Made by a program: the position numbers and the translations under genes | Notes under the pieces: generated by a model | The model's input: only the letters and a program-made list of their open reading frames with translations | Told to the model about the DNA's origin: nothing | Databases searched by the model: none | Source of the DNA: Thermoplasmatota archaeon | GTDB taxonomy: Archaea > Thermoplasmatota > E2 > DHVEG-1 | Length of the DNA: 47,968 nt | Assembly (NCBI GenBank): GCA_029762575.1 | Contig: JARVGL010000004.1 | Location: 1 to 47,968 of the forward strand | Direction: 5' to 3' | In this document: piece by piece, positions 16,186 to 28,808 of the stretch | How the letters are laid out: each line of letters begins with the position of its first letter | Numbering within the stretch: the first letter of the stretch is position 1

Positions 16186-17124
16186 TTATCGTAATAATCC
16201 TTGGATGATAAGATCAGTTGCTTTTTCCTCATCAAGACCTCGTGCCATCAATGTTTGAAGTTGTTTAGAATCAACACTTCCAAGAGATGCCTCATGGGTG
16301 ATATGGGCCTTTGGATGATTCACCTTAACAATGGGAACAGCGCTTACAACTCCATTATCTTGTACGATCTCTTTACAGTCAACATGTCCTCTTGCATAAG
16401 CTGCCGACGCCGTTAATTCACTATACACTTCAGCTGTTGCATCATCACGTACCGCAACCCTTGACAATAATACACCATGGGCATGTTCACCGTTCAAATG
16501 ACCTTTTTCTTTTATATGTACGATATCAGTATGGGTCGCATTCACTTTAGCATTCATCTCAAGAACACTATATGGTCCGCAGAATGTCTCATAATCGATG
16601 TCAATTCGCCCAACCCTTCCCTTCAACAACTCAAAATCGGTCTTATATCGTGCATGATCCTGTAAATGTATCGTTGCCTTTGGAACAACGGTGATTCCAC
16701 CACTTTCTCCATGGATATGACGTTCAATATATGAGTACGATGCATGTTTTCCAATATTGATAGTTGCATTCATCAGATGCTGTATCTTTTCTGCAATAGG
16801 AAAGGTACAATGAGCCAGTACCTGTATCGATGAACGATCTTCAATGGTAATATCCATGTTTATCCGTTGTATCCCTTCTTTATGCATCAAACCAAAACAC
16901 ATATGGACAGGGTTTGCCACCACCGTGTTTTTCTTAAGTCGTATCTGTAGATCGATACCATCTGGGATTTCCCTTGGTTCGATGATCAATCCAGGGACTC
17001 CCTGAAGGGAAACGACCTTGTCATGATGGATGAACAGATGTGCGACATCCTTATTAGCAAAGATGTCCTGGGTGATACCTGAAGCCCTGGATAACGATTT
17101 TTTTATTGATTCATCAGAGTTCAT
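16186..17124 (-). CDS. SufB/SufD-family Fe-S assembly scaffold
   Basis: The 312-residue protein has the right-handed beta-helix SufBD core, with YSYIERHIHG, GPYSVLEMNAKVNA and ELTASAAYARGHVDCKEIVQ. It also has the conserved end VNHPKAHITHEASLGSVDSKQLQTLMARGLDEEKA. The Cys in GHVDCKE and HEAS fit the scaffold's cluster-assembly residues. It is shorter than bacterial SufB (about 480) and matches the short archaeal form. It overlaps sufC by 4 nt, and no second SufB/SufD, SufS or SufU is present, so this is a minimal SufC-SufBD pair. Confidence 0.92.
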   Translation of the reverse strand: MNSDESIKKSLSRASGITQDIFANKDVAHLFIHHDKVVSLQGVPGLIIEPREIPDGIDLQIRLKKNTVVANPVHMCFGLMHKEGIQRINMDITIEDRSSIQVLAHCTFPIAEKIQHLMNATINIGKHASYSYIERHIHGESGGITVVPKATIHLQDHARYKTDFELLKGRVGRIDIDYETFCGPYSVLEMNAKVNATHTDIVHIKEKGHLNGEHAHGVLLSRVAVRDDATAEVYSELTASAAYARGHVDCKEIVQDNGVVSAVPIVKVNHPKAHITHEASLGSVDSKQLQTLMARGLDEEKATDLIIQGLLR

Positions 17125-17867
17125 AGAGCACCCACCTTATTAGGCATATTCTTATGGCTGCAGGGGATACAGTTTTTCTCAAAATAAGGGATGATCTTTG
17201 AAGCAGCAGCCTTTTCAATGATCTGCCCATCGCACATAAGAAACGCATGATCGGCCTGTCGTAACACAGCAAGACTATGAGTAATAAGAAGAATAGTGGT
17301 TCCGTTTCTTTTTAACTTTTTAATGACCTCGTTCATCTTTTCTAACGTCCCAACATCTATACCTGAATCCGGTTCATCAAGCATGATGAATGGGGGATCC
17401 ATTGCGATGATAGATGCTAATTCTATCTTTTTTCGTTCCCCTCCGCTTAATGTCTGATCAACAGATCGATACAGATATTCCTCTGGTTGAAGACCTAATT
17501 GTATCAGTGCATCTTTTGTTATGGTCTCTTTGTCATCTTGTTTACCTGATGAAATTCCTGCAGAGACGAAATCAAAGATACTCACTCCTTCAAATCGTGC
17601 AGGTTCCTGCCATCCAAAAGTGATACCTTTTCTTGCGCGTTCATCGATTGATAATGTATTTATGTTCTCTCCGCGAAACAGAATATCCCCAGTTACTTCC
17701 CGATATCCTTCTAGACCCATGATGGTTGAAGCAAGAGTTGATTTCCCCGCTCCGTTGGTACCGACCAATGCATGGATGTGACCATCCCATATGTCTAGGG
17801 AGACATTTTTAAGGATTTGCACACCATTGAGGGTAAGACTCAGATCTCTTATCTCGATAATTCCCAT
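17121..17867 (-). CDS. sufC: SufC Fe-S assembly ATPase
   Basis: The 248-residue ABC-type ATPase has Walker A GTNGAGKST (about 36-44), the SufC-specific AGITFGWQEPARFEGVS (Q-loop region), signature LSGGERKK (about 140-147), and Walker B FIMLDEPDSGIDV. The switch His is in LLITHS. SufC forms a complex with the SufBD scaffold and powers cluster assembly. Four-base overlap with the next gene indicates coupling. The last 25 residues contain a CIPCSHKN segment not typical of SufC. The 76-bp gap to the upstream desulfoferrodoxin gene holds a T-rich stretch but no clear TATA box. Confidence 0.95.
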   Translation of the reverse strand: MGIIEIRDLSLTLNGVQILKNVSLDIWDGHIHALVGTNGAGKSTLASTIMGLEGYREVTGDILFRGENINTLSIDERARKGITFGWQEPARFEGVSIFDFVSAGISSGKQDDKETITKDALIQLGLQPEEYLYRSVDQTLSGGERKKIELASIIAMDPPFIMLDEPDSGIDVGTLEKMNEVIKKLKRNGTTILLITHSLAVLRQADHAFLMCDGQIIEKAAASKIIPYFEKNCIPCSHKNMPNKVGAL

Positions 17868-17943
17868 ATGCTATCATCTTTGTATCAACAAGTTTTTTTT
17901 CTGATCATCGTCATTCTCAAAACAAGAAAATAGAAAAGAAGGA

Positions 17944-18327
17944 TTATGAAGAATTCTTCCATAATCCATGGATGTTACAGTATTCCCTTGCTTGAACCGA
18001 TGTCGCGGTTATCTCAAAAATCGCCTCAGGTTTTTCACCAGGTTTTAAGAATCTTCGATGACTTGTTCCATCAGCGATGATCTGTATCCATTCGATGTAA
18101 TGTTTCTCTTCCATTGGATGATCCTGATTCTGTCCAACTTTTACGATAAACCCTTTATCGGTTTTTTCTATATACGGGACATGCTTCTCGGTGGAAGCAT
18201 CTTGAGTTTTTTCGTCTTGTTTCTCCATTGGTTTGCCACAGCATACCAATTGACCTTGTGCTGCGTGAAGGACTTCAACGATATTTCCACATATCATACA
18301 TTTATATATTTCTTGGACCTTTGTCAT
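17944..18327 (-). CDS. dfx: Desulfoferrodoxin (superoxide reductase)
   Basis: The 127-residue protein has the two-domain layout. An N-terminal desulforedoxin-type iron site (YKCMICG ... LVCCGKPM, about 9-35) is followed by the superoxide reductase domain with ligands EKHVPYIE (His, about 49), [11 protein letters not shown] (two His) and CNIHGLW near the C-terminus (Cys and His). It reduces superoxide to peroxide using rubredoxin electrons. A strong GGGAGG ribosome site precedes the ATG at 18327. It is 24 nt after the rubrerythrin gene, and the rubredoxin donor is encoded at the head of the same gene series. Confidence 0.95.
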
Positions 18328-18350
18328 GTGATTTCATTCCTCCCTATTCT

Positions 18351-18926
18351 TCAATAGGTTTCTACAAATATCTCATAATAGCTTTGTGGATGTTGACAAG
18401 CGGGACATTGTTGAGGTGGTTCAATTCCTTCGTGTATATAGCCACAGTTACGACATTTCCATCGAACCTTTTGCTCCCGTTTGAATACCTTATCTTTTTC
18501 CATATTATCTAGCAATGTTCGATATCGTTTTTCGTGAGATGCCTCTACTTTAGCGATATAGCAGTAACTTCGTGCTATCTCCGGGAATCCTTCTTCTTCA
18601 GCTGTCTTTTGAAAATCTGGATATAACGTCCCCCATTCCATTTTCTCGCCTTCTGCTGCATCTCGGAGATTCTCTTTTGTCGATCCAATAACTCCTGCAG
18701 GGTAGTATGCTGTTATCTGAACCTCGCCGCCTTGTAAATGTTTGAAGAACACTTTTGCATGTTCTTTTTCGTTCTCCGCGGTCTCTTCAAATATTGCAGC
18801 GATTTGTTCATATCCTTCTTTTCGTGCTTTCGATGCGTAATAACTATATCTATTTCGAGCTTGTGATTCCCCTGCAAATGATTTAAGGAGATTCTGCTCC
18901 GTTTTCGTTCCTTTTAATGATGACAT
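18351..18926 (-). CDS. rbr: Rubrerythrin
   Basis: The 191-residue protein has a four-helix diiron domain: FAGESQARNRYSYYA (about 15-29), FEETAENEKEHAKVF (about 46-60) and VEASHEKRY (about 127-135), the usual Glu/His ligands. A C-terminal rubredoxin domain follows (VRWKCRNCGY ... QQCPACQHPQSYYEIF). It reduces hydrogen peroxide to water with electrons from rubredoxin or FprA/Hrb-type partners. AAAGGTGAAAAAAA before the ATG is the leader type repeated through this gene series. The length is normal, with no missing ligand. Confidence 0.97.
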   Translation of the reverse strand: MSSLKGTKTEQNLLKSFAGESQARNRYSYYASKARKEGYEQIAAIFEETAENEKEHAKVFFKHLQGGEVQITAYYPAGVIGSTKENLRDAAEGEKMEWGTLYPDFQKTAEEEGFPEIARSYCYIAKVEASHEKRYRTLLDNMEKDKVFKREQKVRWKCRNCGYIHEGIEPPQQCPACQHPQSYYEIFVETY

Positions 18927-18947
18927 TTTTTTTCACCTTTCTCTTAT

Positions 18948-19442
18948 TTAAGGTCCCGCGTGGACCATTTCCCAATAGACATCAGCTTGTTCAAAACGTT
19001 CAATGCTTTCCTTCTCTGTTTGAAGGATGCGATAATGTCCTAGTTCCATATCTGCAAAGTATTGTAACATCTGGGATGTTTCAATGTCCTTGAATCTCTT
19101 TGAAAGCATGGAATAGAAATCATGTGCTGCCTGTTCAGCGTTCATCGCCTGTACAAGAATAGTACTAAGTGGAACATCTTCATCGATTGGTACTGTTATC
19201 TCTGGGAGAGGTACAATGGATACTTTCGGTATGACCAGTGATTCTTTAGGATAGTTCTTTTTAAAAATCGATTCGAGATATTCTTTGTGTTTTGTCTCTT
19301 CAGCGGCAAGAAAATGGAATTTATCCTTCATCAATCCATTCTGTATCCTGTTAGCAAGTGTTGAATACACATTATTGCTATCAATCTCACTTTTTATTGC
19401 AGTAAGAATGAGGTCTTTAAGTGAATGTTCTGTTTCTATCAT
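18948..19442 (-). CDS. Rubrerythrin-like ferritin-fold protein without rubredoxin domain
   Basis: The 164-residue helical protein has two repeated half-bundles: AIKSEIDSNNVYSTLANR ... AAEETKHKEYLES, and MNAEQAAHDFYSMLSKR ... FADMELGHYRILQ. Glu and ExxH residues sit where rubrerythrin diiron ligands fall. It lacks the rubredoxin domain and ends in VYWEMVHAGP. Such erythrin-type proteins may act as peroxidases or in iron oxidation with a separate electron carrier. It lies 22 nt before the rubrerythrin gene in the redox series. Confidence 0.85.
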   Translation of the reverse strand: MIETEHSLKDLILTAIKSEIDSNNVYSTLANRIQNGLMKDKFHFLAAEETKHKEYLESIFKKNYPKESLVIPKVSIVPLPEITVPIDEDVPLSTILVQAMNAEQAAHDFYSMLSKRFKDIETSQMLQYFADMELGHYRILQTEKESIERFEQADVYWEMVHAGP

Positions 19443-19456
19443 CGTATCACCTTAAT

Positions 19457-19861
19457 TTAATCGATTAATCGTTGCTGACCAGTGAGTTGCTGTATCTCTG
19501 TGATATCCTGGGATGCTTCTAAACAGCCGATGTACTCTCCTGATGTATCTCTGAGAGCATAATACTCTATCATCACCTTTCGCAAGCTTTTATGCTCGCC
19601 GTACGCTAGATCAATCCAAAACCGTGCTTTCTCTCTTTTCCCTTCTTTCATTTCTTTAAGTATCTGCTCTACTTTATCAAGGCTATTTTTTGGATGGCAA
19701 TTCATCACATTTCGTCCAACGACAGATTCAGGACGTTTAAAGATCCTTGTTTCATGTCTATTCCACGCTACAACCGTGTCATGCTTATCCAGTATCGATA
19801 TCTCTAGAGGAATCGTTTCAAGGACGGCATCTACTAATTCTGAAGATAGTTTTCCTATCAT
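19457..19861 (-). CDS. Stand-alone PAS-domain sensor protein
   Basis: The 134-residue protein is one PAS domain: a start like AVLETIPLEISILDKHDTVVAWNRHE, the RNVMNCHPKNSLDKVEQILKEMKEGKRE segment, and the YYALRDTSGEYIGCLEASQDITEIQQL end. The NCHP motif and following helix resemble the PAS unit at the C-terminus of DUF438 proteins. No output domain is attached, so it must sense (perhaps a heme or flavin redox state, inference) and act through a partner. It lies between the ferritin and the rubrerythrin-like gene with 15-28 nt gaps and has its own AGAAGGAGAAAAG ribosome site, so it is an integral member of the series. Confidence 0.85.
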   Translation of the reverse strand: MIGKLSSELVDAVLETIPLEISILDKHDTVVAWNRHETRIFKRPESVVGRNVMNCHPKNSLDKVEQILKEMKEGKREKARFWIDLAYGEHKSLRKVMIEYYALRDTSGEYIGCLEASQDITEIQQLTGQQRLID

Positions 19862-19888
19862 TTTTCTTTTCTCCTTCTATTCTCCTGA

Positions 19889-20401
19889 TTATTTGGACGG
19901 TAACTCTGATGTGAACGTCCTCTGTGAAAGTTCCTTATCTATCATGAACATCCCATTTCCTTTATCACCGACCAGTCTTAGTTTTCCAATTATCTCGTTG
20001 TCATTAGCTTCTTCTTCGATCTGTTCGGTGACGAACCATTGTAAGAATATCTGTGTCGCATGGTCTTTTTCTTTGATTGCTAGATCCATGAGGTCGTTGA
20101 TGGATTTCGTGATGAATTTCTCATGTTCTAACGTTTTTTGGAACATATCCATAGGGTCTTTGAACGTTGAAAGAGGTTCATCTATTTTTTTTAATTGAAC
20201 CTTGCTACCTTGATCTTGAAGATAACTGTATAATCTCATTGCATGTTCCATCTCCTCTTTGTATTGGACCATGAACCAGTTAGCAAACCCATCCAAACCG
20301 CTATGGGTTGAATGAGCGGACATGGAGAGGTAAAGATATGCAGAGTACATCTCTTTGTTTATTTGCTCATTGAGAGCTTTTTCCATTGTATTACTGATCA
20401 T
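19889..20401 (-). CDS. ftn: Ferritin
   Basis: The 170-residue protein begins MISNTMEKALNEQINKEMYSAYLYLSM, with the ferroxidase Glu in NKEMYSAY. It contains YKEEMEHAMRLYSYL (about 48-62, EExxH), EHEKFITKSINDL and WFVTEQIEEEAND, the order of prokaryotic non-heme ferritins (FtnA type). It stores iron as ferric mineral and withholds Fe(II) from peroxide. AAAAAGGTGATAAAAAT precedes the start. Its place between peroxiredoxin and the PAS protein fits joint control of iron and peroxide. Confidence 0.95.
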   Translation of the reverse strand: MISNTMEKALNEQINKEMYSAYLYLSMSAHSTHSGLDGFANWFMVQYKEEMEHAMRLYSYLQDQGSKVQLKKIDEPLSTFKDPMDMFQKTLEHEKFITKSINDLMDLAIKEKDHATQIFLQWFVTEQIEEEANDNEIIGKLRLVGDKGNGMFMIDKELSQRTFTSELPSK

Positions 20402-20428
20402 ATTTTTATCACCTTTTTACTGTTAACT

Positions 20429-21070
20429 TTATATTTTTTTATGGCAGAACCACCAGTCATAGCACGTATATTCCTTTTGTCGTTTCTTTGCTGTTTTTAC
20501 ATCGGAGGCTGGTGGGATGATGACACCATCTTTGACTAGTTCATTGTTCGGCCAGTTAGCGGGGATTGCTACACCATGGGCCTCTGAGGTTTGGAATCCT
20601 TTGATCATGCGAAGGATCTCATCCATGTTACGTCCTAGTTCTTGAGGATAATACAGCATCGCTCGGATGATGCCTTTCGGGTCGACGATAAAGACAGCCC
20701 GTACTGTGTTTGTTCCTTTGTTAGGATGGATAAGTCCTAATATATTCGCTATTTTTCCCGTGTCTGCTATGATTGGAAATGTAATCTCAAGTTTTAGGTG
20801 GTCTTGTATCCATTCGATCCATTTGATATGGCTGAAGACTTGATCTACACTAAGCCCGATGAGTTCACAGTTATGTTTTTTGAATTCATCATATCGTTTT
20901 TGGAACGCATAGAATTCTGTGGTGCATACCGGTGTGAAGTCTGCAGGGTGGCTGAATAGTATGAACCATTTCCCTTTGTATTCGTCAGGTAGTTTCTTTA
21001 TTCCGTGGGTTGTTTGTACGGTAACCTTTGGAAATTCATCTCCAATCAGTGGCATTTTTATTTCTTCCAT
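20429..21070 (-). CDS. Archaeal-type peroxiredoxin (Prx6-like)
   Basis: The 213-residue protein has the active-site segment [12 protein letters not shown] with peroxidatic Cys49. The long C-terminal extension contains [18 protein letters not shown] and ends [12 protein letters not shown], whose two Cys match the resolving positions of archaeal Prx6-type thioredoxin peroxidases. It reduces peroxides using thioredoxin- or glutaredoxin-like donors, and both such systems are encoded downstream in the series. AAAGGTGAAAAAAA sets the start at 21070. The 76-bp leader is unusually purine-rich on the coding strand, with no clear TATA box. Confidence 0.95.
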
Positions 21071-21146
21071 TTTTTTTCACCTTTCTTTTCCTTTTTCTAT
21101 TCTTTTTTCATTTTTTAGTATCATTTCTTATGTTTTTCCCTTACAT

Positions 21147-21305
21147 TCATTTTGTTCGTTTCATAGGTACGCCACAACAATATGGTTTGTTGTTTGGTAC
21201 TTCGTCGAACCCAATAATTGAGTCGCAGTTGCAATCTTCATCGTTGCAATCGCATTTGTATTGTACTGGCTTATCATCTGCCTCACATCCACAACTATTA
21301 CACAT
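21147..21305 (-). CDS. 52-aa protein with nine cysteines
   Basis: The ATG at 21305 follows GGGAGGTG, so this start is chosen over an upstream in-frame ATG. The protein begins MCNSCGCE, continues with KCDCNDEDCNCD and ends PYCCGVPMKR. The C-terminal CCGxPM is the same motif as in the desulfoferrodoxin N-terminal iron domain (17944) and resembles YCCDAPM in the ribbon protein at 14566. The CxC-rich first half looks metallothionein-like. It is probably a metal-binding or desulforedoxin-like miniprotein serving in iron or electron handling (inference). It lies between the FprA gene and peroxiredoxin. No named family is recognised. Confidence 0.7.
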   Translation of the reverse strand: MCNSCGCEADDKPVQYKCDCNDEDCNCDSIIGFDEVPNNKPYCCGVPMKRTK

Positions 21306-21342
21306 TTTTATAACACCTCCCGGGTTATTTATCACTTATAGC

Positions 21343-22521
21343 TCATTTTCTTATATATTTTGCTAATTGAATTCCTATATCTTTCATTTTTTTCAAATCA
21401 TTTTCTGAGGGTATATAATTGATGTTCACACTGGATAATGGTCTGTCCCATCCAAGTCCTTCCACTATCTTCTCTATCTCGCCGACCGCTTGGCCGCCCC
21501 AACCAAAGGAACCAAAGATGAATCCGACCCGGTTCAAGGGCTTTAGTCCTTTTAGATATGTTAGAAAACTACCCACAGTTGGTAGCATTCCATTATTTAG
21601 GGTTGGTGAGCCCAACAATACGAGTTTTGATTCAAGAATATCTTTCATTATATCAGAAATGTGATTATTCTGAAGATGTTTTACAGAGACGGATATACCT
21701 TCTGATCGTAGTCCTTCAAGTAGTGCGAAGGCCAACTTTTGTGTGGATCCCCACATGGTATCGTAGATGATGACCGCTTTAGGATCGGTTGTGTTTGTAG
21801 ACCATTTCTTGTATAACTTGATTACCTCATCGCAATGGCTTCTCCAAATGATCCCGTGACTTGGAGCGATCATATCAAAGTCTAGCGCATTCAGTCCTTC
21901 CAAGGCTTTTTGGACTTGCCCGCCAAACGGGAAAACGATGTTCGCATAATATTTTGCTGCCTCCTCCTGAAGAATTCCTAAGGGGAGTTGATCATCGAAC
22001 CGTTCAGATGTTGCAAGGTGTTGACCAAATGCGTCATTAGGAAATAACAGCCTATCGTTTTTACTATATGTTACCATTGAATCCGGCCAATGGACCATTG
22101 GTATATGGACAAAGGAAAGTGTTCTTTTACCAATTGATAGTTTTTCACCTGATTTTACAACCTTTGTATTCCATTGGTGATTGTAATGTTTTAATAGTCC
22201 TTTTTCTCCACGAGTTGATGTTATAACGGTTGCATCAGGAATTAGATTAAGCAATTGTGGGAGGCTTCCCGAATGGTCCATCTCGACATGATTTGATATC
22301 ACATATGAGATATCCTTAGGGTCTATTACTGTTTTGATTCTCTCAAGCATCTCTTCAAATAGATAGTGTTTTACAGTATCTATCAATGTAATTTTTTCGT
22401 CAACGATAAGATACGAGTTGTAGGTTGATCCTCTAGGGGTTTGATATCCATGGAAGTTACGGAGGTTCCAATCGATACCTCCTACCCAATAGACATCAGG
22501 TTTTATGTTGATTGCTTCCAT
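21343..22521 (-). CDS. fprA: FprA-type diiron flavoprotein (O2/NO reductase)
   Basis: The 392-residue protein has an N-terminal metallo-beta-lactamase-like domain with full diiron ligands: NHVEMDHSGSLP (HxExDH, about 77-88), VHWPDSM, FPNDAFGQH and APSHGIIWR. A C-terminal flavodoxin domain follows (AVIIYDTMWGSTQKLAFAL, then GSPTLNNGMLPTVGSFLTYL and SFGWGGQAV), which binds FMN. It reduces O2 to water, or NO to N2O, using electrons from rubredoxin or F420H2. Its start overlaps the end of the high-molecular-weight rubredoxin gene, the known partner arrangement of Moorella hrb-fprA. Confidence 0.95.
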   Translation of the reverse strand: MEAINIKPDVYWVGGIDWNLRNFHGYQTPRGSTYNSYLIVDEKITLIDTVKHYLFEEMLERIKTVIDPKDISYVISNHVEMDHSGSLPQLLNLIPDATVITSTRGEKGLLKHYNHQWNTKVVKSGEKLSIGKRTLSFVHIPMVHWPDSMVTYSKNDRLLFPNDAFGQHLATSERFDDQLPLGILQEEAAKYYANIVFPFGGQVQKALEGLNALDFDMIAPSHGIIWRSHCDEVIKLYKKWSTNTTDPKAVIIYDTMWGSTQKLAFALLEGLRSEGISVSVKHLQNNHISDIMKDILESKLVLLGSPTLNNGMLPTVGSFLTYLKGLKPLNRVGFIFGSFGWGGQAVGEIEKIVEGLGWDRPLSSVNINYIPSENDLKKMKDIGIQLAKYIRK

Positions 22522-22526
22522 GATAA

Positions 22527-22685
22527 TCACTGCAGTTCAAATGCTTCTTTACCGGCACCGCATACAGGACATACCCAGTCATCAGGGATCTCATCGAATG
22601 GTGTGCCTGGTGCGATACCACCATCAGGATCTCCTTTTACTGGGTCATACACATACCCACATACGGTACATACATATTTTTCCAT
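22527..22685 (-). CDS. Possible separately translated rubredoxin (internal start)
   Basis: An in-frame ATG at 22685 inside the Hrb gene would give a 52-residue rubredoxin starting [11 protein letters not shown], exactly where free rubredoxins start. It has both CxxC knuckles and the [13 protein letters not shown] and F residues. AAGGAGGAAA precedes it with 8-nt spacing, one of the best ribosome sites in the window. A free rubredoxin could feed desulfoferrodoxin and rubrerythrin. Expression is an inference. Confidence 0.45.
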
Positions 22686-23231
22686 ATTTCTTTCCTCCTT
22701 CTGAATTTTTTTTCCTTTTACTTCTTCCTCTTTATTATAAGTTGGTGCTGTTTTTGGTGAAAAACCACCTTTAATAGTATGATAATACTCATATGTCAAA
22801 GGGTCCTCATCGCTTAACATCTGAGCATCAATGACATCGCCAACAAAGATCGTATGGGTGCCAACATCCAAGTTTTTAGTGACCTTTATTTCGATATATG
22901 CGATGGAATGATCGGTTATAATTGGGATATCGTTTTGTGAGATAACACAATTAACTCCATCCATCTTATCGATGTCCCTTCCGCATTTGAATCCAAAGGT
23001 ACCGACAAAGGTCATTGGGGTTTGTTTATCGAGTATAGAAAGAGTAAAGGCTTTGCTTTTTGTGATGAGTTCGTGGGTGAGATTACTTCGGTTGATACTG
23101 ATAGCAAGGGTTGGGGGTTCTGATGTTACCTGAAAGACAGAATTTGCGATTTGCCCGTTCTCCTTTCCATTATATTTTGAACAAACGACATAGAGACCAT
23201 AACTAATCTTTTGAAGAACATTTTTATCCAT
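22527..23231 (-). CDS. hrb: High-molecular-weight rubredoxin (flavin reductase-rubredoxin fusion)
   Basis: Residues 1-160 form a flavin-reductase split-barrel FMN domain ([27 protein letters not shown], then a [14 protein letters not shown] segment). A charged linker at about 165-181 leads to a complete rubredoxin ([12 protein letters not shown] ... [14 protein letters not shown]). The order is that of Hrb, which passes NAD(P)H or related electrons to FprA. It overlaps the regulator gene by 8 nt and the FprA gene slightly. The linker codes for a strong internal ribosome site followed by an ATG, so free rubredoxin may also be made from the same message. Confidence 0.95.
22691..22700 (-). promoter_or_regulatory. 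Strong internal ribosome binding site in hrb
   Basis: On the minus strand AAGGAGGAAA codes part of the Hrb linker (KEER) and lies 8 nt before the in-frame ATG at 22685. It matches the 3' end of archaeal 16S rRNA far better than most true starts nearby. Confidence 0.5.
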
Positions 23232-23658
23232 TTTTAACTCCCTCTTTATTTAAACAATCCTTGCATTTCCCTCTGAAATAACCATGTACTTCCTCTATCC
23301 GGTGTCCATCCTTAAGGATGTCTTTTTCGATGGTTTCAACATTGGGGCATGTAAAATGAATGTCAAAGATCTTCCCGCATTGTTTACAGATGAAGTGGTG
23401 ATGCATATCATGGTTAAAATCATATCGATGTTCTGTTGGACAGATGGTCAATCTTTGAATGATCCCTGCATTTGTAAGTGTTTCAAGGGTGTTGTATATC
23501 GTTGTCTTTGAAAGCGAAGGATATTTCTTTGTTAAAGATTGGAATATCTCGTCAGCAGTTGGATGGGTTAGGTGAGATTCAACATATCTGAGTATCTCAA
23601 GTCTTTGTTGTGTTACCTTGAGATTATGGGTTTTTAATAGCTCAACAAATGTCTCCAT
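23224..23658 (-). CDS. perR: PerR/Fur-family peroxide or iron regulator
   Basis: The 144-residue protein has a winged-helix DNA-binding domain ([27 protein letters not shown], then the recognition helix in [13 protein letters not shown]) and a dimer domain with regulatory residues. The structural zinc Cys are CKQC and CKDC. PerR-type metal ligands appear present: His in HPTADE, Asp in [12 protein letters not shown], and Asp in CGKIFDI. This supports PerR rather than Fur. The ATG at 23658 has AGGTGAG just upstream, and a GTG at 23667 is less likely. It heads the redox series and has a PerR-box-like palindrome at its own promoter, so it probably controls itself and the series. Confidence 0.9.
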
Positions 23659-23692
23659 TGTACTCACCTAGTAGTATGAAATGGTTTTTAAG

Positions 23693-24185: not shown

Positions 24186-24206
24186 AATTTGTTATATAAT
24201 TTGTTA
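24186..24206. repeat. 9-bp tandem direct repeat upstream of the racemase operon
   Basis: AATTTGTTA occurs at 24186-24194 and 24198-24206, a 12-bp period, close to one helical turn. It lies 60-80 bp before the operon start. The rest of the 270-bp gap is AT-rich promoter-like sequence. Confidence 0.5.
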
Positions 24207-24211
24207 GCATT

Positions 24212-24285
24212 TGGTAATACAAATAACGAAAAAAATACTAAATAAGAAAATGTGTTTTTTTCATAATGTGTGTGGTAATACAAAT
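24212..24285. repeat. 13-bp direct repeat flanking the racemase operon promoter
   Basis: TGGTAATACAAAT occurs at 24212-24224 and again, identically, at 24273-24285. The second copy overlaps the ATG at 24284. The copies flank the ACTAAATAA TATA-like element (about 24237-24245), so binding of a protein to both could loop or block the promoter. Confidence 0.5.
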
Positions 24286-24733
24286 GGTTTCAATAGAAAA
24301 AATCGAAACAAATGATGGATTCCCAAACCATCTCACTGAAGAAAAAATCATAGACTTTCTCTACAACCATCTTGATAAATATAAAGACAGCAGACAGGCT
24401 ATAAAAAAGGCAATAACCTACGCTTTTTCAAAAGAACCTGGGAAAGGAGGATTTCTATTAGCTGCCTTAAAGGATGAAACGCTTGTAGGGGTTGTTGTTG
24501 TTAATAATACCGGAATGGGCGAATACATTCCTCACCATATACTCGTCTATATAGCTGTTAATAGAACAAGACGAGGACAAGGTATTGGTAAAAAACTCAT
24601 GAGAGAGGTTAAACGACAATGTTCTGGGGACATCGCTCTTCACGTGGAATATGACAATCCTGCGAAACGATTGTACGAACGATGCGGGTTTTCATCAAAA
24701 TATGCTGAAATGAGATATGAACAGGAAACGTAG
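24284..24733 (+). CDS. GNAT-family N-acetyltransferase
   Basis: From the preferred ATG at 24284 the protein has 149 residues (an in-frame ATG at 24266 would add six). The GNAT core is clear: LAALKDETLVGVVVVNN, VYIAVNRTRRGQGIGKKLMREV with the acetyl-CoA-binding RGQGIG loop (about 105-110), and the C-terminal VEYDNPAKRLYERCGFSS. It heads a four-gene operon with two racemases and an amidohydrolase and ends 10 nt before the next gene. Acetylation of an amino acid or amine in the same pathway is plausible (inference). Confidence 0.85.
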   Translation: MVSIEKIETNDGFPNHLTEEKIIDFLYNHLDKYKDSRQAIKKAITYAFSKEPGKGGFLLAALKDETLVGVVVVNNTGMGEYIPHHILVYIAVNRTRRGQGIGKKLMREVKRQCSGDIALHVEYDNPAKRLYERCGFSSKYAEMRYEQET

Positions 24734-24742
24734 GGTTTTACG

Positions 24743-25831
24743 ATGGCTGAACTAATAGTTCATCATAAGAGAATAATTCGAAATATCGAAAAAATGAATT
24801 CGTTCCTCTCGGAAAAAGGAAAAGAATGGTCACTTGTAACAAAAGTTCTTAATGGTCATAGACCAACACTTGAAAAGATCCTTTCGTCAGACGCTGTTAA
24901 AGAAACACATTCAATCGCAGATTCACGGATATCAAGTCTCAAGACAATCAAAGATATACGAAAAGACATTGTAACAATGTATCTTAAACCTCCTGCAAAA
25001 TCATCCGTAAAGAACATCATACGATATGCTGATATCTCATTAAATAGTGATTTCCAAACGATTAATCTCTTGAATGAAGAGGCAAAAAGACAAGACGTCA
25101 ACCATCGCATCATGATCATGATAGAATTAGGGGAACTGCGCGAAGGAGTGGTCCGAGAAGGATTCCTTGATTTTTATGAACGGGTGTTCGATCTATCAAA
25201 CATCACTGTGATAGGTTTAGGAACTAATCTTGGATGTATGTATGGGATAGAGCCAACGTTTGACAAATTGATACAACTCTGTCTTTATGAACAACTTATT
25301 GAGACTAGATTCAATCAGAATCTAGAACTTGTATCAGGCGGAAGCAGTATTACGTTACCCTTACTAAAAAGAAAAAAGGTTCCCAAAGGAATCAATCACC
25401 TTCGAATAGGGGAAGCAATATTTCTTGGTACCTCCCCACTTGAACAAAAAAAATTCATGAATCTATCAACAAATGCTTTTGAATTCAAAGGTAACATCGT
25501 GGAACTTCAAAAAAAGCAGACTCAACCTGACGGGATCATAGGAAATGGAAATGTTGGTCATGTGGAGACTTTTTCAGAGGCTGGTTCATTGAAGGAAGAA
25601 TACAAAGCCTTACTAGATTTCGGTGTCATAGATGTAGATAGCGACAATCTTACACCAAAAAACAAAAAAGCACAATTCCTAGGAACAACTTCCGATCTCA
25701 CCGTCTATAGTCTTGGTCAAGATATCAGCAAATACCAGAGAGAAAAGATAATGCATTTCCAACCTAATTATATGGCCGTTGCTCGATTGATGAACTCAAA
25801 ATTCGTAAAAAAAGAGATTGATTCGTTATAG
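24743..25831 (+). CDS. Ornithine/alanine racemase-family PLP enzyme
   Basis: The 362-residue protein has an alanine-racemase N-terminal barrel. The putative PLP Lys lies in WSLVTKVLNG (about 33). Later segments are IADSRISSLK, YADISLNSDFQTINLLN, IMIMIELGELREGV, LVSGGSSITLP and NHLRIGEAIFLGTSPLEQ. This segment order matches ornithine racemase of amino-acid-fermenting clostridia and related YhfX-like proteins rather than classical Alr. It likely interconverts L- and D-forms of an amino acid such as ornithine, Ala or Lys; specificity cannot be read. A classical alanine racemase lies two genes downstream, so the operon has two distinct racemases. Confidence 0.85.
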   Translation: MAELIVHHKRIIRNIEKMNSFLSEKGKEWSLVTKVLNGHRPTLEKILSSDAVKETHSIADSRISSLKTIKDIRKDIVTMYLKPPAKSSVKNIIRYADISLNSDFQTINLLNEEAKRQDVNHRIMIMIELGELREGVVREGFLDFYERVFDLSNITVIGLGTNLGCMYGIEPTFDKLIQLCLYEQLIETRFNQNLELVSGGSSITLPLLKRKKVPKGINHLRIGEAIFLGTSPLEQKKFMNLSTNAFEFKGNIVELQKKQTQPDGIIGNGNVGHVETFSEAGSLKEEYKALLDFGVIDVDSDNLTPKNKKAQFLGTTSDLTVYSLGQDISKYQREKIMHFQPNYMAVARLMNSKFVKKEIDSL

Positions 25832-25891
25832 AATATGTAAGTGATATGAACCGGTGAGACCTAAAGTGATGGATTACTAGGAGTATACTTT

Positions 25892-27046
25892 ATGAAGCTG
25901 GACGAACTGATTAAGCTACGGCGCCTACTCCACAGATATGCGGAATTATCTGGAAACGAGAAGCATACATCAGAGATAATTACCGCTCAACTTGTAAAAA
26001 ATGATCCAACCGATATCATTACAAATCTAGCGGGAGGGTATGGTGTAGCAGCAGTCTTTGACTCAGGGACATCTGGTCCTACTCTTATGATCCGTGCAGA
26101 ACTTGATGCATTACCAATAGAGGAACGATTGCCTAAGCCGTACAAAAGCATAACACAAAATGTAAGTCATGTATGCGGCCATGATGGACATATGGCGATT
26201 CTTATTGGTGTTTCTGAAAAACTAACAACCAATAGAGATCGATACAACGGAAAAGTAATAGTTCTCTTTCAACCAGCAGAAGAGACTGCAGCAGGGGCAA
26301 AGCAGCTTATGAACGATACAAGATTCCAGGCTTTTAGACCTGACCTCATCATTGGATTTCATAATATCCCTGGTTTCTCTCTTGGGGAAGTTTTAATCAA
26401 AAACAAAGTATTTTCTGTAGCATCCAAAGGTCTTATCATTAGGTTACATGGTGAAACAACACATGCGGGAACCCCTGAAAAGGGAAAGAATCCAACCAAT
26501 GCACTAATAGAAGTACTTCAGATAATTCAACATATATCAGAGGAGTATCAACAAAAGGATACTCGATCCTTTATCACTGTTATCCATGTAAATCTTGGAG
26601 AAGTAGCTTTTGGCACAAGCCCTGGTGATGCTGTCGTAATGGCTACGCTCCGAAGTCCCGAAGATAGCCGTATGGAACAAATGAGTTCAGAGATACTTAC
26701 TAAGACCCAAGGGATTGTTTCAACATATGAGCTCAAATGGGAACATGAATGGGTTGAGGTTTTCCCCGCAGTTAAAAATGATGAACAAGGAAACCAAGAG
26801 ATCATCAAAGCATCTACAGAGATAGGAGTGCCCATAACATATCTATCAGAACCATTTCGTTGGTCAGAGGATTTTTCTTATTATCAAGAACAATATAGAA
26901 GTGTGTTCTTTGGGATCGGTTCAGGCATTCACCAACCATCATTGCATACCGAAATTTATGATTTCCCTGATGAACTCATTCCTCTAGCAACAGACCTATG
27001 TTTTCAGATACTCTGTAATTGTTCGAAACGATGGCGGAGAACATAG
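25892..27046 (+). CDS. M20-family amidohydrolase (N-acyl-amino-acid hydrolase type)
   Basis: The 384-residue metallopeptidase-like protein has RAELDALPIEE (about 70-80), the metal-binding VCGHDGHMAILIG (about 91-103), QPAEETAAGAKQLM (about 130-143), GFHNIPG and a late SLHTEIYDF. This is the pattern of aminoacylase and IAA-amino-acid hydrolase relatives. The dimerisation domain sits at about 185-295. It would release free amino acids from N-acyl or peptide-like substrates. A TAGGAG site precedes the ATG. The alanine racemase gene begins at its stop, so the two are probably coupled. It may act in opposition to the GNAT enzyme or supply D-amino acids for racemisation (inference). Confidence 0.9.
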   Translation: MKLDELIKLRRLLHRYAELSGNEKHTSEIITAQLVKNDPTDIITNLAGGYGVAAVFDSGTSGPTLMIRAELDALPIEERLPKPYKSITQNVSHVCGHDGHMAILIGVSEKLTTNRDRYNGKVIVLFQPAEETAAGAKQLMNDTRFQAFRPDLIIGFHNIPGFSLGEVLIKNKVFSVASKGLIIRLHGETTHAGTPEKGKNPTNALIEVLQIIQHISEEYQQKDTRSFITVIHVNLGEVAFGTSPGDAVVMATLRSPEDSRMEQMSSEILTKTQGIVSTYELKWEHEWVEVFPAVKNDEQGNQEIIKASTEIGVPITYLSEPFRWSEDFSYYQEQYRSVFFGIGSGIHQPSLHTEIYDFPDELIPLATDLCFQILCNCSKRWRRT

Positions 27047-27048
27047 AA

Positions 27049-28206
27049 ATGAGATATAATTCATATATTGAACTAAGTCAAAAATCGTTAGCAAAAAATA
27101 TTAACTATCTAAAGCAGATAATTGGTCCTAATGTCACGTTTGTATCAGTAATAAAAGGTAATGCATATGGTCATGGAATAACGGAGTTTGTCCCTCTCGC
27201 AGAAAAGTGCGGAATCGATTTCTTCGCAGTTTTTGATGTTTTTGAAGCTCAACAAGCATACAGTGTCAAAAGAGAAGGGACACATGTTATGATAATGGGT
27301 ATGATACATGGTGAGGACCTACCATGGGTCCTATCGAACAACTGTTCATTCTTTGTTAGCGATCTCAATACATTACAAAACGTTGTTTCAATTGCTCAAG
27401 AACTAAAGAAAAGGGCGTTCATACATATTGAGCTCGAGACAGGATTACATAGGACAGGGTTTGAGGAAGATGAATTACCGTCTCTTGTTGAAATTATCAA
27501 TCGAAATAGTGATAATATCTCTGTTGAGGGTTTATGCACTCATCTAGCAGGTGCTGAAAGCATTTCAAATTATGTTAGAATACATAGTCAGATGGGTATC
27601 TATGAAAGAGTTAAAGAATGGATGAAAAAGCAAGGGATACTACCAACATATTTCCATGTAGCTTGCTCAGCAGCAGCGTTGATGTATCCGGAATCTCGAA
27701 TGAACATGGTCAGGATCGGTATTGCCCAATATGGGTATTGGCCAAGCAAAGAGACCAAGATACACAAACTATTATCTGATACCTCTCAATATAAACGAAA
27801 TCATTTGCATAGTATGTTAGCGTGGAAAAGCACTGTTTCAGGGGTAAAATATGTATCCCCCGGTGAATTCATAGGCTATGGCAATATGTTCCAGACAACA
27901 AAACAAACAAAGATCGCTACGATACCTGTTGGTTATTATCATGGGTACCGACGGAGCTTAAGTAATGTTGGTCATGTATTGATTAGAGGTAAAAAAGCAC
28001 CTATTATCGGATTAGTGAATATGAGCATCATGATCACAGATGTTACTGCTATCCCGGAAGTTACAAGAGGAGATGAGGTCGTTCTCATTGGAAAACAAGG
28101 AACACAAAAGATAAGTGTTTCGTCGTTTTCGGAGCAACTTAATCTAGTAAATTATGAACTTCTCAGCCGGCTACCTATGCAGATACCTCGATACGTCACT
28201 CATTAA
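27049..28206 (+). CDS. alr: Alanine racemase
   Basis: From ATG 27049, two bases after the preceding stop and with GGAG at 27035-27038, the protein has 385 residues. PLP Lys lies in VIKGNAYGHG (about 32-41). ETGLHRTGF, VEGLCTHLAGAE, HVACSAAAL and NMVRIGIAQYGYWP follow through the barrel. The C-terminal domain has GYGNMFQTTKQTKIATIPVGYYHGY and LVNMSIMITDVT in the positions of the catalytic Tyr and substrate-binding loops. The domains are those of classical Alr. Without a bacterial wall, D-alanine here would serve catabolism of bacterial debris, osmolytes or an unknown polymer (inference). ATG 27031 is an alternative start. Confidence 0.92.
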   Translation: MRYNSYIELSQKSLAKNINYLKQIIGPNVTFVSVIKGNAYGHGITEFVPLAEKCGIDFFAVFDVFEAQQAYSVKREGTHVMIMGMIHGEDLPWVLSNNCSFFVSDLNTLQNVVSIAQELKKRAFIHIELETGLHRTGFEEDELPSLVEIINRNSDNISVEGLCTHLAGAESISNYVRIHSQMGIYERVKEWMKKQGILPTYFHVACSAAALMYPESRMNMVRIGIAQYGYWPSKETKIHKLLSDTSQYKRNHLHSMLAWKSTVSGVKYVSPGEFIGYGNMFQTTKQTKIATIPVGYYHGYRRSLSNVGHVLIRGKKAPIIGLVNMSIMITDVTAIPEVTRGDEVVLIGKQGTQKISVSSFSEQLNLVNYELLSRLPMQIPRYVTH

Positions 28207-28388: not shown

Positions 28389-28808
28389 CTATAACCGTAT
28401 ACCCATACTGATACGATCCTCAACCGCAAAACCTACCTTTGCATAGAAAGAAACAATACCTATGTTTTCTTTATCGACCTGTAAATTCACTTTTAGGCAC
28501 CCCACCTTCTTCAGTTCGCTCAGTGCCTTTTTCATTAACAGGGACCCAATCCCTTTTTTCCGATGGCCTTCTTTTACAGCTAAAGAATAGATCCATCCTC
28601 TGTGTCCATCGAATCCAACAAGAACAGTTCCAACGATACCCCCCGGGTCAGCTACTGCTACATAGAATAGGCCATCACCATGTCTCATCTTCATATCAAT
28701 ATTGATCTCTGGGTCATTGTGAATATACGAGCTATGAAAAACACTCTTCCAAAGCTCGATAACAGTTGCTTTATCACTAGCTTTAAATCTTCTAATACGA
28801 ACACTCAT
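28389..28808 (-). CDS. GNAT-family acetyltransferase in the hydrogenase operon
   Basis: The 139-residue protein begins MSVRIRRFKASDKATVIELWKSVF and has YVAVADPGGIVGTVLVG, VKEGHRKKGIGSLLMKKAL (acetyl-CoA loop, about 80-98) and FYAKVGFAVEDRISMGIRL, a complete GNAT fold similar to YpeA/RimI-like enzymes. It starts 4 nt after the mvhD stop, so it is almost surely cotranscribed with the hydrogenase genes. Its substrate is unknown; acetylation of a hydrogenase-associated protein or a small molecule is possible. The 180-bp gap to the convergent alr gene is AT-rich and holds no gene. Confidence 0.88.
   Translation of the reverse strand: MSVRIRRFKASDKATVIELWKSVFHSSYIHNDPEINIDMKMRHGDGLFYVAVADPGGIVGTVLVGFDGHRGWIYSLAVKEGHRKKGIGSLLMKKALSELKKVGCLKVNLQVDKENIGIVSFYAKVGFAVEDRISMGIRL

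Follow-up and report, generated by a model that had tools for sequence, protein, structure and literature searches.

The operon at positions 24266 to 28206 on the forward strand of the window, the 47,968-nucleotide stretch of Thermoplasmatota DNA analysed here, is a transporter-less, stripped-down version of a gene cluster of Bacteroidota and not an archaeal invention. Its most likely use is the handling of D-amino acids, and the explanation that best fits its context, with a probability of about 0.45, is a salvage module for dibasic and alanine-like D-amino acids with an acetylation/deacetylation branch. The Bacteroidota cluster is apparently undescribed in the literature searched; a search for operons joining a racemase to an N-acetyltransferase, with most subscription journals outside its scope, returned nothing relevant. 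The operon ties two archaeal racemases to a conserved, testable bacterial cluster with likely uptake and downstream partners, and it would be a case of a gene set crossing domains as a unit.

Four packed genes and their products

The window is the whole of one contig (C106) of a 1.58 Mb genome in 161 contigs, estimated to be 94% complete. The sequence-only reading had recognized an operon of four enzyme families, and it was correct on both counts: all four open reading frames lie on the + strand in the order GNAT, Orr-like, M20, Alr and match their family profiles. The start it gave, 24186, precedes the first GNAT codon by about 80 nt. The GNAT-family N-acetyltransferase gene (24266–24733, +; 155 aa; PF00583, 55 bits) is followed after 9 nt by the gene for an Orr-like fold-type-III PLP amino-acid racemase (24743–25831, +; 362 aa) and, after a further 60 nt, by that for an M20-family amidohydrolase/deacylase (25892–27046, +; 384 aa). 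The Alr-type racemase gene ends at 28206 (+) and begins either at ATG 27049 (385 aa), leaving a 2-nt gap, or at ATG 27031 (391 aa), overlapping the M20 gene by 16 nt. An Rfam search gave no match, and promoter and terminator scans gave signals at or near chance level. Just downstream, on the − strand, lies a second, unrelated GNAT gene (28389–28808; PRK03624-like, 146.7 bits against a cut-off of 124). On the other side, positions 16186–23667 hold what we take, partly from sequence only, to be an oxidative-stress and iron island with SufC/SufD-like Fe-S assembly, ferritin-like, peroxiredoxin-like, FprA-like, rubredoxin and PerR/Fur-family genes.

The AlphaFold model of the GNAT protein (mean pLDDT 93.0) has the GNAT fold, and its nearest structures are aminoglycoside, spermidine and protein N-terminal acetyltransferases, none of which points to a substrate. 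One row from a plasmid record was left out of the structure-prediction alignment. The M20 protein scores 203.5 bits with TIGR01891 against a cut-off of 153.75, the usual metal motifs are intact in its translation (VCGHDGH, PAEETAAGA, HNIPG and LHTEI), and its nearest solved structures are YxeP and the N-alpha-acyl-glutamine aminoacylase 6slf; overall it is acylase-like. A part in ectoine degradation as a DoeB2 enzyme was rejected, the protein reaching 188 of the 550 bits required.

The Orr-like protein aligns over its full length with the ornithine racemase profile NF040742, at 272.1 bits in the window and 281.9 bits in a related archaeon (G023), both under the curated cut-off of 480; PF01168 gives 44 bits. 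Its model (mean pLDDT 92.8) is closest in the PDB to alanine, serine, lysine and broad-specificity racemases, at TM scores of about 0.7–0.77, and resembles the structures of Alr, VanT, lysine racemase and Bsr. The residue predicted to form the PLP Schiff base, K34, is invariant in 36 sequences, and together with the model match it places the protein among the fold-type-III PLP barrels with a Schiff-base lysine. Falling short of the curated cut-off, the protein is best described as ornithine-racemase-like. The Orr tree joins the three archaeal sequences in one clade (100/100), nested in a 17-row clade (100/99) whose remainder is Bacteroidota and which stands apart from classical-type Orr.

The Alr-type protein scores 267.6 bits with TIGR00492, against a cut-off of 168, and has both the N- and the C-terminal domain (PF01168 and PF00842). 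The catalytic residues K46, R145, H175, R232, Y287 and Y379 (numbered from a TTG-start reading frame) are kept. The MDQ motif is MSI in the window protein and begins with MN or MS across its clade, so that Asp is replaced by Ser or Asn. Its tree unites the two archaeal sequences (99/100) within a 27-row clade that a branch of 1.92 separates from 13 further copies, Alr or MurF-Alr, in the same bacteria. This long branch from wall-synthesis Alr, with the catalytic residues retained, argues for a dedicated second, non-housekeeping enzyme. The two racemase trees set both proteins apart, from classical-type Orr and from wall-synthesis Alr, respectively. A role in wall or polymer synthesis was rejected, since the operon is without a ligase or Mur gene and its Alr falls outside the wall-synthesis clade; the surface polymer suggested earlier finds no support, with neither ligase nor polymerase linked. 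Elsewhere in the archaeal family (G007), a D-Ala-D-Ala-ligase-like ATP-grasp gene adjoins an Orr-family racemase gene.

A gene set shared by archaea and Bacteroidota

The complete gene order recurs in G023, a member of another archaeal genus, with identities of 56, 71, 47 and 60% for GNAT, Orr-like, M20 and Alr, respectively. A third genus (G017) has GNAT-Orr-M20, cut off within the M20 gene by the end of the contig and preceded upstream by a gene with an AsnC-type HTH. The order is therefore shared by relatives, a prediction on which the sequence-only reading had staked its proposal. The set is found in three of the 23 genera of the archaeal family and is sporadic there: of 45 family genomes, 2 have the Alr and 3 the close Orr-like form. 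Elsewhere in the phylum the only Orr proteins are of the classical type (28–35% identity), and their neighbors are a PALP-GNAT fusion and M20, or DUF1611, lysine transaminase (LAT), D-Ala-D-Ala-ligase-like or saccharopine-dehydrogenase-like genes. The fusion, which joins a threonine-synthase-like PALP part to a GNAT domain, accompanies classical-type Orr at seven loci (L016, L018, L019, L022, L026, L029 and L033), several of them with an ArgE/DapE-type M20 gene. A DUF1611 (DgcN-like) gene directly adjoins an Orr-family racemase gene at five others (L017, L023, L143, L071 and L072), in archaea, Bacteroidota and Vibrio plasmids.

Such a scattered distribution, with the G023 and G017 copies on short contigs, might be expected of chance neighbors or of bacterial contamination of the assembly. 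This explanation is extremely improbable and contamination was rejected. The copies in the three archaeal genomes are 65–71% identical and form one clade, and the gene order is conserved across phyla. The TATA-binding protein is present in the window's genome and in G023 and G017, and among 14 control genomes it occurs only in the 4 archaea, so the host genome is archaeal. The 48-kb contig also bears the family's own Mvh hydrogenase operon, conserved in relatives; because its MvhA is 75–84% identical to its counterparts in about 27 genomes of the family, the contig belongs to the archaeal genome. Relatives that share the Mvh operon carry different adjacent genes, and the comparison gave no clean empty site.

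The bacterial search covered 396 genomes of the phylum around a Parabacteroides MAG and found about 60 strong Orr-like homologues. Their cluster comprises genes for an SSF-type Na+/solute symporter, GNAT, the Orr-like racemase, a cytosolic M23 peptidase-like protein, M20 and the dedicated Alr, and rearranged or shortened forms occur. The M23 proteins keep the HxxxD, YGHLS and HLH motifs and by inspection have no evident signal peptide. Of 59 loci, three archaeal and the rest from Bacteroidota, 58 have the GNAT gene next to the Orr-like gene. Among the 49 loci read at length, SSF occurs in 33, M20 in 26, Alr in 23 and M23 in 19, and the GNAT-Orr pair is often without M20, Alr or SSF. Where no Alr gene is linked, a dedicated Alr can sit elsewhere in the genome, once as an M20-Alr pair (G728). 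A Persicobacter plasmid has the order SSF-GNAT-M20-Alr-Orr. Four bacterial loci (L082, L133, L138 and L140), whose Orr-like proteins are 57–60% identical to the archaeal one, have GNAT-Orr-SSF-M20-Alr, which is the archaeal order with the symporter added.

The archaeal operon unites homologues of GNAT, Orr-like, M20 and Alr from this cluster, and the dedicated SSF and M23 genes are absent from it. Nor do the archaeal genomes hold the cluster's own SSF elsewhere (best match 28–30% identity) or its M23, although a weakly similar M23 is encoded at another site. Quick trees unite the archaeal copies of M20 (SH-aLRT 99) and GNAT (SH-aLRT 95) as well, and in the Orr and GNAT trees the archaeal genes are placed next to Bacteroidota. 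Since the archaeal copies make up a single clade in each of the four trees, one transfer probably brought in the whole set, with loss of the transporter. This agreement among the trees is compatible with movement as a unit and then descent, or renewed exchange, inside the archaeal family, and we infer the direction, from Bacteroidota to archaea, from the breadth and diversity of the bacterial clusters. What had been taken for an archaeal pathway is instead an import, of a conserved cluster that in Bacteroidota has two extra genes, for the SSF symporter and the M23 protein.

Proposed salvage of D-amino acids and its alternatives

Of the three roles proposed from the sequence, salvage has the best contextual fit, with an uptake symporter, a peptidase and transaminases as neighbors. 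Within the full cluster the Na+ symporter would import amino acids or short peptides, and the M23 and M20 hydrolases would release amino acids by cleaving small peptides or N-acylated derivatives. The Orr-like enzyme would then convert dibasic amino acids of the ornithine/lysine type from D to L and Alr would do the same for alanine- and serine-like residues, substrates and a direction that we infer from the company the genes keep. L-Ornithine and L-lysine would pass to ornithine or lysine transaminase. The case for uptake and D-to-L conversion lies in the presence together of the symporter, two hydrolases, two racemases and linked transaminases: ornithine transaminase (OAT) stands beside the cluster in ten related bacterial loci, five of which also have LAT, and within the cluster at L154. 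The archaeon would rely on oligopeptide and other permeases in place of the SSF transporter and would feed on the D-amino acids of bacterial debris. An OPT oligopeptide transporter is encoded in the same window, and the host genome encodes a lysine 6-transaminase homologue that shares 56% identity with the one beside the bacterial cluster. This homologue adjoins a probable peptidase with C10/streptopain-like motifs.

The weak point of salvage is the GNAT enzyme, the racemase's most constant partner and one not needed for simple racemization or salvage. The best guess is a protective or trapping N-acetylation that M20 undoes: GNAT would convert an amino acid into an N-acetyl form, protected or non-toxic, from which M20 would later release it. 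Other Orr-family genes likewise stand beside N-acetyltransferase genes (DUF1611/DgcN-like and PALP-GNAT) and M20 genes. To our knowledge, PLP racemases need a free alpha-amine and do not act on N-alpha-acylated amino acids; the acetyl branch would therefore lie outside the racemase step and could not precede racemization on the same nitrogen. Also against salvage, the GNAT-Orr pair is frequently found without M20, Alr or SSF, and its core function may therefore be acetylation and not salvage; the OAT/LAT linkage, confined to related bacteria, may reflect descent; and the archaeal genomes are without the cluster's SSF and M23.

The constancy of the GNAT-Orr core speaks for a biosynthetic use. 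The racemases would make D- from L-amino acids, GNAT would trap the product as an N-acetyl-D-amino acid serving as a compatible solute, signal or export form, and M20 would recycle it. Acetylation would drive the reversible racemization one way, and pairs of racemase and N-acetyltransferase recur in unrelated forms, as DUF1611 (DgcN-like) with Orr and as PALP-GNAT with M20 and Orr. This use is nonetheless rather unlikely, given a full cluster that includes an M23 peptidase and a PutP/SSF-type Na+ symporter, normally an importer, with neither exporter nor ligase linked. A bolder formulation, put forward tentatively and with a similarly modest probability, sees an undescribed cross-domain module in which racemase and N-acetyltransferase are fixed partners in making or consuming N-acetyl-D-(dibasic) amino acids and M20 serves for release. 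If true, this module would be a new D-amino-acid metabolism, for a solute, signal or food store, common to Bacteroidota and archaea.

The OAT and LAT neighbors also bear on a pathway that would handle ornithine, lysine or a derivative by way of N-acetyl-protected intermediates, like the acetyl-type lysine and arginine pathways. Racemization would be one step, catabolic or anabolic, on the way to OAT/LAT, and Alr would act on a dibasic amino acid and not on alanine. The M20 protein is similar to DoeB2-type N-acetyl-diaminobutyrate deacetylase, though far under its cut-off, the archaeon G266 has LAT beside classical-type Orr, and the lysine (dap) operon of Staphylococcus contains an M20 gene and alr2. 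Such a pathway is unlikely in view of an Alr that keeps alanine-racemase residues, Y379 included, clusters without other lysine-pathway genes, and a transaminase linkage found only in related bacteria.

The likeness of the GNAT profile and model to many amine and aminoglycoside acetyltransferases, with no clear preference, would also suit detoxification, in which GNAT and the racemases would serve no nutritional purpose and would neutralize D-amino acids, or some other amine, where bacteria are plentiful. A Na+ symporter would then bring in the toxic compound and M20 would reverse its acetylation, which makes this the least credible of the metabolic readings and a very unlikely one. Should the salvage reading be right, it would offer archaea a way to live on the remains of bacterial walls or on aged protein, materials in which D-amino acids and ornithine accumulate (PMC6752024). 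The enrichment of both in sediment organic matter (PMC6752024) matters here only if sediment is the host's habitat.

Comparison with known systems

Two racemases in an archaeon had been thought unexpected. They are less so in light of the literature: free D-amino acids and racemases are known from archaea, their purpose being described as unclear (PMC6047364), and the alanine racemase of Methanococcus maripaludis serves D-Ala catabolism, according to the passages of PMC6047364 and PMC6965332 that cite Moore and Leigh 2005. That racemase and its permease, as those passages present them, would share with the operon the use of an archaeal Alr for D-Ala catabolism.

Classical Alr of wall synthesis and the VanT serine racemase share with the window Alr a TIGR00492 score above cut-off, both domains and the catalytic residues. 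The window Alr differs from the wall-synthesis enzyme in its separate, distant clade, its change from MDQ to MN/MS and its operon partners, which are not wall-synthesis genes. For the M. maripaludis Alr, we know of no GNAT, M20 or Orr-like partner. The clostridial Orr of the D-ornithine (OraSE/OrtAB) pathway belongs to the same fold-III PLP family, and the window protein is 30% identical to the Orr-type protein of L144, whose neighbors look OraSE/Ort-like from their sequences. The window protein, in contrast, scores below the Orr cut-off, falls in its own clade (100/100) and has GNAT rather than OraSE as its neighbor.

Two further systems combine acylation with D-amino acids. In the DgcN/DgcA pathway of marine Proteobacteria and haloarchaea, DgcN is a D-glutamate N-acetyltransferase. 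The resemblance lies in acetylation during D-amino-acid catabolism and in the DgcN-like DUF1611 genes that adjoin Orr-family racemases; the DgcN acetyltransferase, however, is of another family, and no DgcA-like gene was noticed at the window operon. The N-succinylamino acid racemase (NSAR) pathway of Geobacillus, which Sakai et al. are said to have described in 2006, reportedly consists of a GNAT succinyltransferase, NSAR and an M20 desuccinylase. NSAR is an enolase-superfamily enzyme acting on N-acyl amino acids, whereas the window racemases are fold-III PLP proteins, which need a free alpha-amine; being of the wrong superfamily, they were rejected as members of an NSAR-type pathway. What the two share is the logic of a GNAT enzyme, a racemase and an M20 deacylase arranged for D-to-L conversion.
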